This document shows, piece by piece, positions 5,818 through 41,701 of a stretch of 64,000 nucleotides of DNA (its first letter is position 1; each line of letters begins with the position of its first letter). The DNA is from Terriglobia bacterium. Lineage in GTDB: Bacteria > Acidobacteriota > Terriglobia > Terriglobales > Acidobacteriaceae. The notes beneath the pieces are model-generated. The model did not search any database, was not told the DNA's origin, and worked only from the letters and a program-made list of their open reading frames with translations. A program made the translations under genes and the position numbers. Location: assembly GCA_020073525.1 (NCBI GenBank), contig JAIQFA010000001.1, positions 62,001 through 126,000 on the forward strand, written 5' to 3'.

Positions 5818-6023
5818 GGTCTCTCCTTCGTGTACAGGCGAATCCAATTATCGCTCCCGTGACGGGGGGGGCTAATGTGATCGGGCGCACATCAGCGAGT
5901 GACGGACGCACACCAAACCGGGAGATTCTGGAATTGTCCGTGTTCCCCCTGCGAGCACCATGTTGAGGTAGACAAGACTTGCCTCGGCAAACTTATTTTC
6001 AGCTATGGGGAGATCGCAGCGGC

Positions 6024-7550
6024 TCAGAAAGCCATTGAGATGTGCTGGTTAGTGCCAGCTACAGCGGCTTCCTCTTGAGTCTTGCCGGAAACCGGTTTGT
6101 TTCCACGAGGCGGGCGTTGGCTGGCGATTCTCCAAAGATACATGGCCGCGTAAGCGCGCCAAGGCCTCCAAGTCTCGGCCCGCTGCACAAGCTCAGGACC
6201 GTTTCTCAGAGCCATGGCGCGCAGCAGCCCGAGATCCGTGGAAGGAAAGGCATCGGGTTCACCGAGCGCCCGCATGGCCACGTACTGTGCTGTCCATTTC
6301 CCAATGCCAGGAATTTCGCACAGACGATTCAGAAAGCCGTCCGAGTCGACCACTCCCTCGAAGCTGATCTTGCCGCTGCAAACCGCGCGGGCTAGAGCTC
6401 GAATCGTTTCGGCTCGCGCCCCAGTCAGGCCAATGTCGCCGAGCCTGGCGTCCGCAAGAACCTCCGGGGAAGGGAAAAGATGAGTGAGGCCATCTGCACC
6501 AGAGAACTCTTTTCCAAAACTGCTTACAAGCCGGCCAGCCATGGCGGTCGCGCCTCTGACAGTAATCTGCTGGCCAAGAATGGCGCGCGTGGCAAGTTCG
6601 AAGCCATTCCAGCAGCCCGGTACCCGAACACCCGGATCGGCCTCAACACTCCCCCCCAATACTGGATCGCTTCTCAGGCTTTGCACGATGGCCGTCCAAT
6701 CAGCGCTCAGATCAAACATCGCGCGGATACGTTCGACAATAAGGAAGAGCGAGTGGGGATCGCCAAATTCAATCCGAACAACCAGTGCGTCGCGCTCCTT
6801 GTCGCAGGCAACCTCGAAATAGCCGTCGCGGCCGTTCAAAGAGATGGTCCGTCGATAAGTGCCCGATTCCACTACTTCGACACCCGGCGTCGCGCGCGCG
6901 GCCAGAAAGTCCAACATCCCCTGCCAGTGATACGGGGGCCGGAAGTGAAGACGGAAGCGATACTGATTTCCTGGCTGGACCCCCGTTTGCCGCATCAGGC
7001 GCCGGATTTGAGTCGGTGTTCGATGATAGACCTTGAGGATGCCGGCGTTAAACCGCCGCACGCATCCGAAACCGGAAGCAAGAGCCACCTGGCTCATGGG
7101 CAATGTCGTCTCGTCGATCAGCTTCTTCGCGAAGTGCAGCCGGCGAGTCTGCGCCACTGCCATTGGTGTTGCGCCCAGATGTCGCAAAAACAAGCGGCGA
7201 AGATGGCGCGACCCGACTCCCAGGCGCTCGGCAAGAACTTCTACCCCACCGTCCTCCAGACCGCTCTCCCCGATCAGCCGCAAGGCCCGCGAAACCGTGT
7301 TTGAAGTTCCTACCCATGCCGGAGTTCCGGGTGAACTCTCTGGACGGCAACGCAGGCATGGGCGGAAGCCAGCTTCCGCAGCGGCGGCAGCGCTTGGAAA
7401 ATAGCGGACGTTCTTCTCTTTCGCGGTCGGCGCAGGACAAATCGGACGGCAGTAAACGCCGCTGCCGATCACGCCAATGAAGAACTTGCCGTCGAAGCGC
7501 GCATCGCGCGACAACCGTGCTCGCGAACATACCTGCCAATCCAGATTCAT
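6024..7550 (-). CDS. alkA: Ada/AlkA fusion: Ada zinc domain, AraC-type HTH and 3-methyladenine DNA glycosylase II
   Basis: 508 aa. The N-terminus is an Ada metal-binding domain with paired cysteines (GVYCRPICPAP, later RPCLRCRPE) that in Ada accept methyl groups from phosphotriesters. Next is an AraC-type helix-turn-helix (about residues 85-185, ending VYHRTPTQIRRL). The C-terminal half is AlkA: HhH-GPD motif LPGIGKWTAQYVAMRAL followed by FPSTDLG, which carries the catalytic Asp. Such proteins sense and excise alkylated bases and control their own genes. The ATG at 7550 is preferred over a GTG six codons upstream because the family begins MxLDxxxCxRA. Its upstream region carries three copies of a GTCCGCNAACGTCC motif. 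The methylguanine methyltransferase domain of classical Ada is absent. Confidence 0.9.
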   Translation of the reverse strand: MNLDWQVCSRARLSRDARFDGKFFIGVIGSGVYCRPICPAPTAKEKNVRYFPSAAAAAEAGFRPCLRCRPESSPGTPAWVGTSNTVSRALRLIGESGLEDGGVEVLAERLGVGSRHLRRLFLRHLGATPMAVAQTRRLHFAKKLIDETTLPMSQVALASGFGCVRRFNAGILKVYHRTPTQIRRLMRQTGVQPGNQYRFRLHFRPPYHWQGMLDFLAARATPGVEVVESGTYRRTISLNGRDGYFEVACDKERDALVVRIEFGDPHSLFLIVERIRAMFDLSADWTAIVQSLRSDPVLGGSVEADPGVRVPGCWNGFELATRAILGQQITVRGATAMAGRLVSSFGKEFSGADGLTHLFPSPEVLADARLGDIGLTGARAETIRALARAVCSGKISFEGVVDSDGFLNRLCEIPGIGKWTAQYVAMRALGEPDAFPSTDLGLLRAMALRNGPELVQRAETWRPWRAYAAMYLWRIASQRPPRGNKPVSGKTQEEAAVAGTNQHISMAF

Positions 7551-37385: not shown

Positions 37386-37511
37386 GGCGTTGGAGTCGAT
37401 CAACCCACCAAGTGACTAACAGCTTGGCAGAACACCTTGAAGAGTATCGCGCGCAAGCACGGGGCTAAACCTCGTTCTAGAATCAGAGATATAGACCGAG
37501 GAAGTTTTCGA

Positions 37512-38915
37512 ATGCGTGCTCACCTAAAATCGAGGGTTCTGGCTGCTCTGCTGACGAGTGCGTTTTGCTTACCCTGGGCAAACGCTCAGGTTTCCGCAAG
37601 CGGTAGTGCAGGTCTCGCTTCCGGTACGCTGAATCTGATCCTGGCTAACAAAAATGGATTTGTCATCGCCGCCGACAGCAGGATGTCAAGCGATACGCCG
37701 TTTGAGTGTGAAAAGGGCTTGCCGAAGCGGCTGTATTGCGACAACAGTCAAAAGCTCTTCAAAACGGGCAATCGCTCCGCGATGGTCATCGCTGGCTTTG
37801 CCGCTGGACGGGCGGAGCCGCCGAGTCCTTTTGATCTTGTAGTTGCAAGTGTTCTTCGAAAAAGTTTTGGCCCTTGCGGCCAGCGAATTTTCCAAGTGAC
37901 TACCGGCCCTGAGCCGAAAGGAGAGGTGGTCTGTGCTCCTGACGCTATGGCGCTCCCCGTATGGGCTCAGATTGACCTAGTTCCTGCGTTGACAGCGGTG
38001 GCTTCACTCTATGACCCGGAACACCTCCCGTCTGACAAGATGTTTTTCGTGACGTCATTCGCAAGTATTGACAAGCAAGGGAAAATTTCAATCCAGCAGC
38101 AGTATTTCAATGGGCACTGGGTGTACGCGAGCGGCAATGTTCCCGTCCCGGTGTACAGCGTCTCGCGCACGCCGGGCGATGTGGTGGACCGGTTCTACCC
38201 GGTTGCTGAGGGCATTAACGACATTGCACTTCAAGTCTTGCGCGGTCAGTACGAAAGCCCCGATCCGACTATCCGAAGCTACTACCGCAGACTCCTTGCC
38301 GGGCCCTCCGGAAGAGACTCAATGACCGTAAGCGAAATGAGGGAACTTGCTCGCGTGATCCTGCGTGAAACGAGGAAGGCCCATAGGAACTTTGTAGGTG
38401 GCCCTGACCAGATTGGTGTATTCCCGGTAAAGGGGCAGCCATCAATTAGTGGGCTTGCTGGCCTATCGAAGGACAAGCAGTTGACTCCTCGTTTTTTCCT
38501 AAACTCTTGTCTCGTTTACGACAAAGATCATCGGGGGTCCAATGGGCCCTGTATGAATGGCACACTTCATGAGGACTTTATGCGTCCCTTGGATGAAGTG
38601 ATCGCGCAGTTTTTCCTTGCCAGCAGATTCAAAGACGTGTCAGTGGCTATTGATAACAACTACTTCGTCCGCAGCGAGTTTGACGGGGTAACGTTCAAAT
38701 ACACCGGCAAGAAACCGCCATTCGCTTTGGGCAATACATACAACGATTGCTCGGTCGAACTGCCGGAGGGCGTCGACTTCAACAGTCCTGAGATTTCGGC
38801 GCACTGTCGTCTAATTAGGATGAAAAACGTCAGCCTGGATCAGAGCACCTTGGGTCGGCCAGTGCAATATCAGAAAGTCGGCGGCTCAATTCGTCTGACT
38901 CTTCCGAATCGTTGA
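37512..38915 (+). CDS. Exported protein with proteasome/HslV-like Ntn-hydrolase N-terminal region
   Basis: 467 aa. A signal peptide (AALLTSAFCLPWANA, cleavage after residue 25) is followed 13 residues later by GTLNLILANKNGFVIAADSR. If Thr39 is Thr1 of the proteasome fold, Asp55 and Arg57 fall exactly at positions 17 and 19, and Lys81 (NSQKLFK) corresponds to Lys33 with an insertion of about 10 residues holding two Cys (66 and 76). SAMVIAGFAAGRAEP resembles the HslV/beta-subunit block IAGFAGGTAD. The remaining 370 residues are unrecognised. GAGGAAG precedes ATG 37512. It lies alone downstream of the DUF2442 gene. Assignment is by motif only. Confidence 0.65.
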   Translation: MRAHLKSRVLAALLTSAFCLPWANAQVSASGSAGLASGTLNLILANKNGFVIAADSRMSSDTPFECEKGLPKRLYCDNSQKLFKTGNRSAMVIAGFAAGRAEPPSPFDLVVASVLRKSFGPCGQRIFQVTTGPEPKGEVVCAPDAMALPVWAQIDLVPALTAVASLYDPEHLPSDKMFFVTSFASIDKQGKISIQQQYFNGHWVYASGNVPVPVYSVSRTPGDVVDRFYPVAEGINDIALQVLRGQYESPDPTIRSYYRRLLAGPSGRDSMTVSEMRELARVILRETRKAHRNFVGGPDQIGVFPVKGQPSISGLAGLSKDKQLTPRFFLNSCLVYDKDHRGSNGPCMNGTLHEDFMRPLDEVIAQFFLASRFKDVSVAIDNNYFVRSEFDGVTFKYTGKKPPFALGNTYNDCSVELPEGVDFNSPEISAHCRLIRMKNVSLDQSTLGRPVQYQKVGGSIRLTLPNR

Positions 38916-39070: not shown

Positions 39071-41518
<2,448 letters not shown>

Positions 41519-41701
41519 ATACAACTCCCCCCGACTTCCTGCGAAAGGACCCACCCTCCGCCAAACCCTGGACCAACCCCTAATTATGCATTTATATCGC
41601 CAAATCTCCCAGCGATATCCGCCTTCTGGTAACCGCGAACCGCCTTACGTCCGGGCCTTTTCAACTTCCACTCTCTAATCGTGCGTCTGGTCTGCCTTTC
41701 G

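Follow-up and report, generated by a model that had tools for sequence, protein, structure and literature searches.

An exported-looking, probable Ntn hydrolase of the proteasome-like kind and its relatives, found mostly in one family of Acidobacteriota

The beta subunits of the 20S proteasome (PF00227) work in a cytosolic ring; their autolysis attacks Gly(-1), with His(-2) occurring in beta5, and a second triad of Ser129, Asp166 and Ser169 is a 20S beta feature that is important for both autolysis and catalysis (passages of PMC4792962). Anbu is without a propeptide and has its start Met removed (passages of PMC5666114). HslV, a further proteasome-like homologue, is the two-ring partner of HslU; most beta and HslV subunits have propeptides, which no other homologue has; and connectase, a monomeric ligase, carries a two-helix insertion between S3 and S4 and is without H1/H2 (as the main text of PMC8665760 describes them). 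That paper (Fuchs, Alva and Lupas, 2021) reported 22 new proteasome-like families, which are divergent, several of them with insertions or C-terminal domains, and which the protein studied here resembles in these respects when set against their main-text descriptions.

The main text of PMC8665760 makes no mention of signal peptides, secretion, the periplasm, Acidobacteria or an exported member, and a term search of a 2026 review (PMC13022661) turned up none of the words periplasm, signal peptide, secreted and extracellular. The literature does describe extracellular 20S proteasomes of animals and parasites, which is a different matter. A search for an exported bacterial proteasome-like protein found none described, one possible prior mention aside: the title of Coluccia and Besaury 2023 reportedly has the words 'secreted proteasome repertoire' with reference to Acidobacteria. 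We take that title to mean secreted proteases, and it could be a prior mention.

The gene under study lies at 37512..38915 (+ strand, as are all features of it given below) in a 64,000-nucleotide stretch of DNA from a Terriglobia bacterium (the window) and, judging from its ORF, translation and homologues, codes for a proteasome-like Ntn hydrolase of 467 aa that is predicted to be exported. The ORF starts at ATG 37512, and a ribosome-binding-like GAGGAAG (37498..37504, read by eye) stands 7 nt before this codon. The translated N-terminus consists of MRAHLKSR, VLAALLTSAFCL and PWANA, followed by the likely cut (ANA/Q) and then QVSAS. By eye and by hydropathy scan it resembles a classical signal peptide whose A-x-A site follows residue 25, and the signal peptide that an earlier note on this DNA had placed ahead of Thr39 is accordingly predicted for residues 1-25 (37512..37586). 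A putative pro-segment (residues 26-38; 37587..37625), with Ser-Gly38 at its end, completes the 38 residues that stand before Thr39. Third-position GC is 0.585 in the gene vs 0.629-0.736 in six neighbouring ORFs, which fits an accessory gene; a promoter and terminator scan around the gene was uninformative.

Thr39 (37626..37628), the putative N-terminal nucleophile, Asp55 and Arg57 fall exactly on positions 1, 17 and 19 of proteasome numbering, with Ser56 on position 18 (Asp55 to Arg57, 37674..37682). Profile alignment to 1pma puts Lys81 (37752..37754) on Lys33 and Gly95 (37794..37796), which lies in the stretch VIAGFAAG, on Gly47 of the oxyanion hole. Ten extra residues are present ahead of Lys81 in the window protein, and in P0002 (the product of the L031 gene) the Lys33 equivalent is the 34th residue. 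We then compared 14 aligned homologues (A4; 14 rows, 390 columns), collected by homology and not by their catalytic residues, with only rows that have the N-terminal domain kept and L021 and L024 left out as incomplete. The sole fully invariant columns are Thr1, Asp17, Ser18, Lys33 and Gly47, each 14/14, while Arg19 is kept in 12/14 rows and Gly(-1) in 13/14. Both the assignment of Thr39, Asp55 and Arg57 to positions 1, 17 and 19 and the choice of Lys81 as the Lys33 candidate, made in the earlier note from the single sequence, are borne out by this spacing, alignment and conservation, all of Thr39, Asp55 and Lys81 being retained throughout. Homologue conservation, together with the profile and fold matches given below, leads us to reject a chance motif. 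Departures elsewhere in the family are a Ser at residue 1 in L058, L061 and L062, which are of the exported type and still have it behind Gly, and a change of Asp17 to Glu in the split L066.

Searched alone, the window protein has no match in Pfam or NCBIfam, and at E up to 10 NCBIfam (HslV and 20S beta models included) offers no family for it, P0002 or P0003. Four further exported-type members score 11-13.5 bits against NCBIfam equivalogs for bacterial or archaeal 20S beta, where the cut-off is 224. Pfam Proteasome matches P0002 (E 0.04) and P0003 (E 0.013) below threshold and is listed for 7/10 further members (E up to 1), with L034 (24.5 bits) and L033 (22.6) above its cut-off of 22.4 and the other 8/10 below. 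A 6-row family profile (A2), whose PDB matches have Thr1 in register, retrieved 57 distinct PDB sequences at E up to 10; 55/57 are proteasome subunits (best E 2.6e-6). With the A4 profile, the best 60 of 105 PDB matches are all proteasome.

AlphaFold, given the mature protein with four homologues, returned a model of modest confidence (mean pLDDT 59.2; pTM 0.57; 171/442 residues <50), in which the core is good, model residues 71-129 are poor, the H1 region is of low confidence and the S2-S3 stretch is longer than in 20S beta. Foldseek on this model gave 43 matches at E <= 0.001, all of them proteasome chains (best E 1e-5), with taspase, another Ntn fold, appearing only at E 0.078; in a viral fold library one proteasome-like phage protein matched at E 2e-6 and the rest lay above 1e-3. 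VIA-align gave Z 15.3 for Anbu 5nyw (5nyw_L; 188 residues, 3.5 A) and about 14 for 20S beta, a difference of about 1, so we do not choose between them. The first aligned residue, model residue 14 (Thr39), falls on residue 1 of both Anbu and 20S beta. Thus the predicted structure is proteasome-beta-like, in line with the fold proposed in the earlier note. The aligned span ends at model residues 290-291 (residue 316) and takes in residues 295-297 (VGG, see below) and the next strand; together with the profile alignment, this delimits a proteasome-like Ntn domain from residue 39 to about 316 (37626..38459; model 14-291). The 370-residue extension that the earlier note described therefore shrinks to about 150 residues after the domain. 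Its homologues and predicted fold lead us to assign the window protein to the proteasome-like Ntn family (PF00227, taken broadly), and computation gives good support to both fold and catalytic layout.

Compared with the described systems, the window protein shares with Anbu the fold and the placement of Thr39 on Thr1, and Anbu has the top VIA-align score, though so little above 20S beta that no particular closeness to Anbu follows; the predicted signal peptide, the pro-segment and the C-terminal module belong to the window protein and set it apart. Its likeness to 20S beta extends over Thr1, Asp17, Arg19, Lys33, Gly47, a pro-segment ending in Gly(-1), and profile as well as fold matches, whereas the predicted signal peptide, Val at the Ser169 place, the longer S2-S3 stretch and the extra C-terminal residues are differences. 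HslV has an AGFA-type sequence at Gly47. The earlier note had likened the IAGFAAG block to HslV: the block does contain the Gly47 equivalent, but the resemblance is not specific to HslV, and an HslV-like assignment in particular is unsupported, with Anbu and 20S beta leading the structural list and no NCBIfam match. The predicted signal peptide also speaks against a cytoplasmic partner of HslU.

Fold does not settle substrate, and the same fold and export would also suit an exported small-molecule amidase or acylase built on a proteasome-like scaffold, by the logic of AHL acylases, penicillin acylases and gamma-glutamyl transpeptidase. Penicillin G acylase, AHL acylases and gamma-glutamyl transpeptidase are well-known exported, self-processing enzymes with an N-terminal Ser or Thr, although they belong to other sequence families and have other chain layouts. 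Nothing in our analysis indicates a ring or pore, which favors this reading; on the other hand, the matches at the head of the structural and profile lists are proteasome-like and not acylases, taspase comes in only at the E value given above, and none of these three enzyme groups is among the A2 or Foldseek matches listed. We regard an amidase or acylase of this kind as rather unlikely. An exported connectase-like peptide ligase or transpeptidase, in which one specific envelope protein would be bound by Thr39 as an acyl-enzyme and passed to an amine rather than to water, would likewise keep the same fold and export. Connectase being a proteasome-like homologue (main text of PMC8665760), and the window protein having additions to the core in its long S2-S3 stretch and C-terminal module, are in keeping with such an enzyme, but where connectase has its insertion, between S3 and S4, the model shows none (E57-61, E64-73), the H1 region, the other feature compared, being of low confidence; we consider this reading quite improbable. 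Our preferred reading, an exported proteasome-like threonine hydrolase, is one we hold to be likely, and that it would be a peptidase rather than a ligase or acylase is an evenly balanced call.

Behind the Ntn domain, a beta-helix-like C-terminal module of short strands is predicted at about residues 365-440 (38604..38831). When the C-terminus alone was given to AlphaFold, it formed the single confident patch (10-residue block means 63-88). Its Foldseek matches, to SV2 luminal domains and pentapeptide-repeat proteins, are weak (best E 0.029), too weak to assign a function from them. By profile match, some small or membrane proteins also have the module on its own (L020, L023, L026, L027 and L030), and Pfam gave no name for the three of these that were scanned (L023, L026 and L030).

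The relatives of the window protein are sparsely distributed. As a single query it matched 4/298 genomes of its order, itself included; a match in G188 was read as chance. The A1 profile matched 4/396 genomes of the phylum, one of which (L009) was read as chance, and 20/398 genomes of the family, four of them (G749, G751, G698 and G266) only via the C-terminal module. Using the A4 profile, 7/396 genomes of the phylum matched, and using the A6 profile, 37/398 genomes of the family in 12/79 genera, as well as 12/80 genomes in the genus of G002; three of the 37 (G022, G694 and G704) match only by Met-Ser forms that we read as cytoplasmic. Left out of the family counts were the five loci with the C-terminal module only (L020, L023, L026, L027 and L030) and two read as chance (L003 and L009). 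A scan of the contigs of named genomes yielded 4 loci out of 13 candidates, in a Terriglobia MAG (L031), an Acidobacteriaceae bog MAG (L034), a Chitinophagaceae MAG (L032) and the cultured Acidicapsa dinghuensis 4GSKX (L033, homologue at 5980-7224), the last being identical in sequence to the G130 locus, which lies within the family that the window comes from. The Chitinophagaceae gene (L032, 6055-7239) shares the two-part layout; the N-terminus of its product is extended by 15 residues and shows no clear signal peptide. Viral contigs and plasmids yielded no relative of the window protein. Going by sequence, the branch is accessory and looks exported, and it occurs mostly within a single family of Acidobacteriota.

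The host genome itself holds further proteasome-like genes. Locus L043 (G000:C117) appears to be a second exported-type member, interrupted or truncated about 40 residues past Thr1; L006 (1426-2397 of G000:C30) codes for 323 aa without a signal peptide and scores 27.1 bits, above the Pfam Proteasome cut-off; and G000:C65 gives a strong PF00227 match of 92.2 bits, which we take to be the host HslV.

To compare N-termini across the family, we took its ORFs at 82 loci plus the window and reduced them to 49 distinct rows in which residue 1 could be placed (L016 and the latter half of L066 are without a Thr1 register; L056 and L075 were counted despite a wrong or doubtful one), and a stretch was called signal-peptide-like when its 11-residue hydropathy mean was above 1.8. 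Such a stretch stands before residue 1 in 39/49 rows, L076 falling below the threshold though its N-terminus is hydrophobic by eye. These 39 exported-like rows comprise 24 Gly-Thr, 11 Ala-Thr and 3 Gly-Ser forms and one doubtful case (L075), residue -1 being Gly in 27/39 and Ala in 11/39 (38/39 together). The other ten rows are five Met-Ser, one Met-Thr, three Gly-Thr (L032, L039 and L076) and one mis-registered (L056). The export of a proteasome-like hydrolase, as put forward in the earlier note, gains support from these hydrophobic stretches, and for the window protein export, probably to the periplasm, is strongly suggested. Eight cysteines follow residue 25 of the window protein, seemingly in near pairs; as the cysteine number is even in only 19/39 exported-like rows, we make no claim of export from disulfides.

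The hydrophobic stretch might instead be an uncleaved anchor or the product of a misread start, in a cytoplasmic or membrane-anchored protein whose Thr39 is never freed. That export is judged by sequence only leaves room for this, as do the relatives without a clear signal peptide (L032 of the Chitinophagaceae MAG, and L039), the cytoplasmic-looking Met-Ser and Met-Thr forms (L008, L040, L078, L079, L081 and L082) and a possible upstream TTG start at 37437. Yet a good ribosome-binding sequence precedes ATG 37512, the stretch recurs in 39/49 rows, and 11 of these have an A-x-A-like site immediately before Thr1, consistent with cleavage; we judge such an anchored or cytoplasmic protein to be very unlikely.

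In the exported protein that we prefer, how the threonine would be freed seems to depend on residue -1. In the 11 Ala rows, Thr1 directly follows a -3/-1 site (with Ala at -1 and A, V, S or L at -3), and the gap from the end of the hydrophobic stretch to Thr1 is 4-8 residues, vs 6-35 in the 27 Gly rows (Mann-Whitney p 6.4e-6, the rows not being independent). L037 provides an example of a short Ala(-1) form. A loose -3/-1 pattern is present in 22/23 sequences scanned, including two that have no hydrophobic stretch, and by itself therefore says little. On the tree, the Ala(-1) state requires a minimum of 4 changes, of which well-supported branches force 2; 8/11 Ala rows form one clade, and the three extra origins are due to L021, L066 and L068, rows of unsure placement that are long or interrupted by gaps. 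The simplest reading is that the threonine is freed by Met removal in the cytoplasmic relatives (by analogy with Anbu), by signal peptidase in the Ala forms and by Gly-Thr autolysis in the Gly forms, and with its Gly38 the window protein would join the last group. The earlier note had pointed out that 13 residues would have to be removed before Thr39 is free; a Gly(-1) like that of self-processing 20S beta pro-segments is a plausible answer, and His-Gly-Thr is present in 6/14 A4 rows. Autolysis at Gly38-Thr39 is the outcome we lean towards. L019 (gene start 1764, - strand) has an LSAC stretch ahead of its pro-segment that resembles a lipobox, and it is possible that this protein is first anchored to lipid and later released by autolysis.

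At the Ser169 place at least, the second triad of 20S beta seems to differ here. A weak second segment of the 1pma alignment places a VGG motif (residues 295-297; 38394..38402) at the Ser169-Gly-Gly place of 20S beta, and by this weak placement Val295 replaces Ser169 in the window protein. Val or Ile occupies this place in 22/49 rows, which are those where a pattern search found the motif (a spurious second match in L073 was ignored), and the Asp166 place was read by eye as variable among the aligned rows. With Val at the first place and variation at the second, autolysis may run differently from that of 20S beta or need another protease. A catalytically dead binding protein that merely retains the fold, a reading to which Val or Ile at the Ser169 place lends something, is most improbable given that Thr1, Asp17, Lys33 and Gly47 and almost nothing else are invariant in the 14 A4 rows.

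The surroundings of the gene were compared among the window, L031, L033 and L034 (mostly by ORF reading, with full translations for L033 and the first 60 residues for the others), and no shared neighbourhood was found. In the window, DUF4160 and DUF2442 genes lie upstream on the same strand, and a ClpC-type AAA+ ATPase with Clp_N and ClpB_D2-small domains (39071-41554, - strand) is convergent with the gene. We rejected a functional link to this ATPase, since it is convergent and no such neighbour was found on reading the ORFs of L031, L033 and L034; its position beside the gene is probably a coincidence.

We propose the following course of events for the threonine hydrolase. Sec would export the protein and signal peptidase I would cut after Ala25; after folding, Thr39 would attack the Gly38 carbonyl (an N-to-O acyl shift) and the 13-residue pro-segment would be shed; the free Thr39, with Lys81 and Asp55, would then act as an ATP-independent amidase or peptidase, and the beta-helix-like C-terminal module may serve to bind the envelope or a partner. 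Where A-x-A stands directly before Thr, as in sister lineages, signal peptidase alone would expose Thr1. As to substrates, we would guess that the enzyme acts on peptides or on a single dedicated envelope protein and not in general degradation. For the extracytoplasmic branch as a whole, the proposal that Thr1 is freed by signal peptidase I in some lineages and by Gly-Thr autolysis after export in others, the window protein included, giving an ATP-free, threonine-based peptide chemistry in the envelope, may hold or fail with about equal chance.

What the comparison suggests as new is an exported-looking branch of the proteasome-like family. Such a branch would be of practical interest as a source of threonine hydrolases or ligases active outside the cytoplasm. 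Descriptions of the proteasome make it a machine of the cytosol; with an exported branch, its fold would be shown to work without an ATP-driven unfoldase. Moreover, its members would amount to natural experiments on how a catalytic threonine is freed, seemingly by Met removal, by signal peptidase and by Gly-Thr autolysis.
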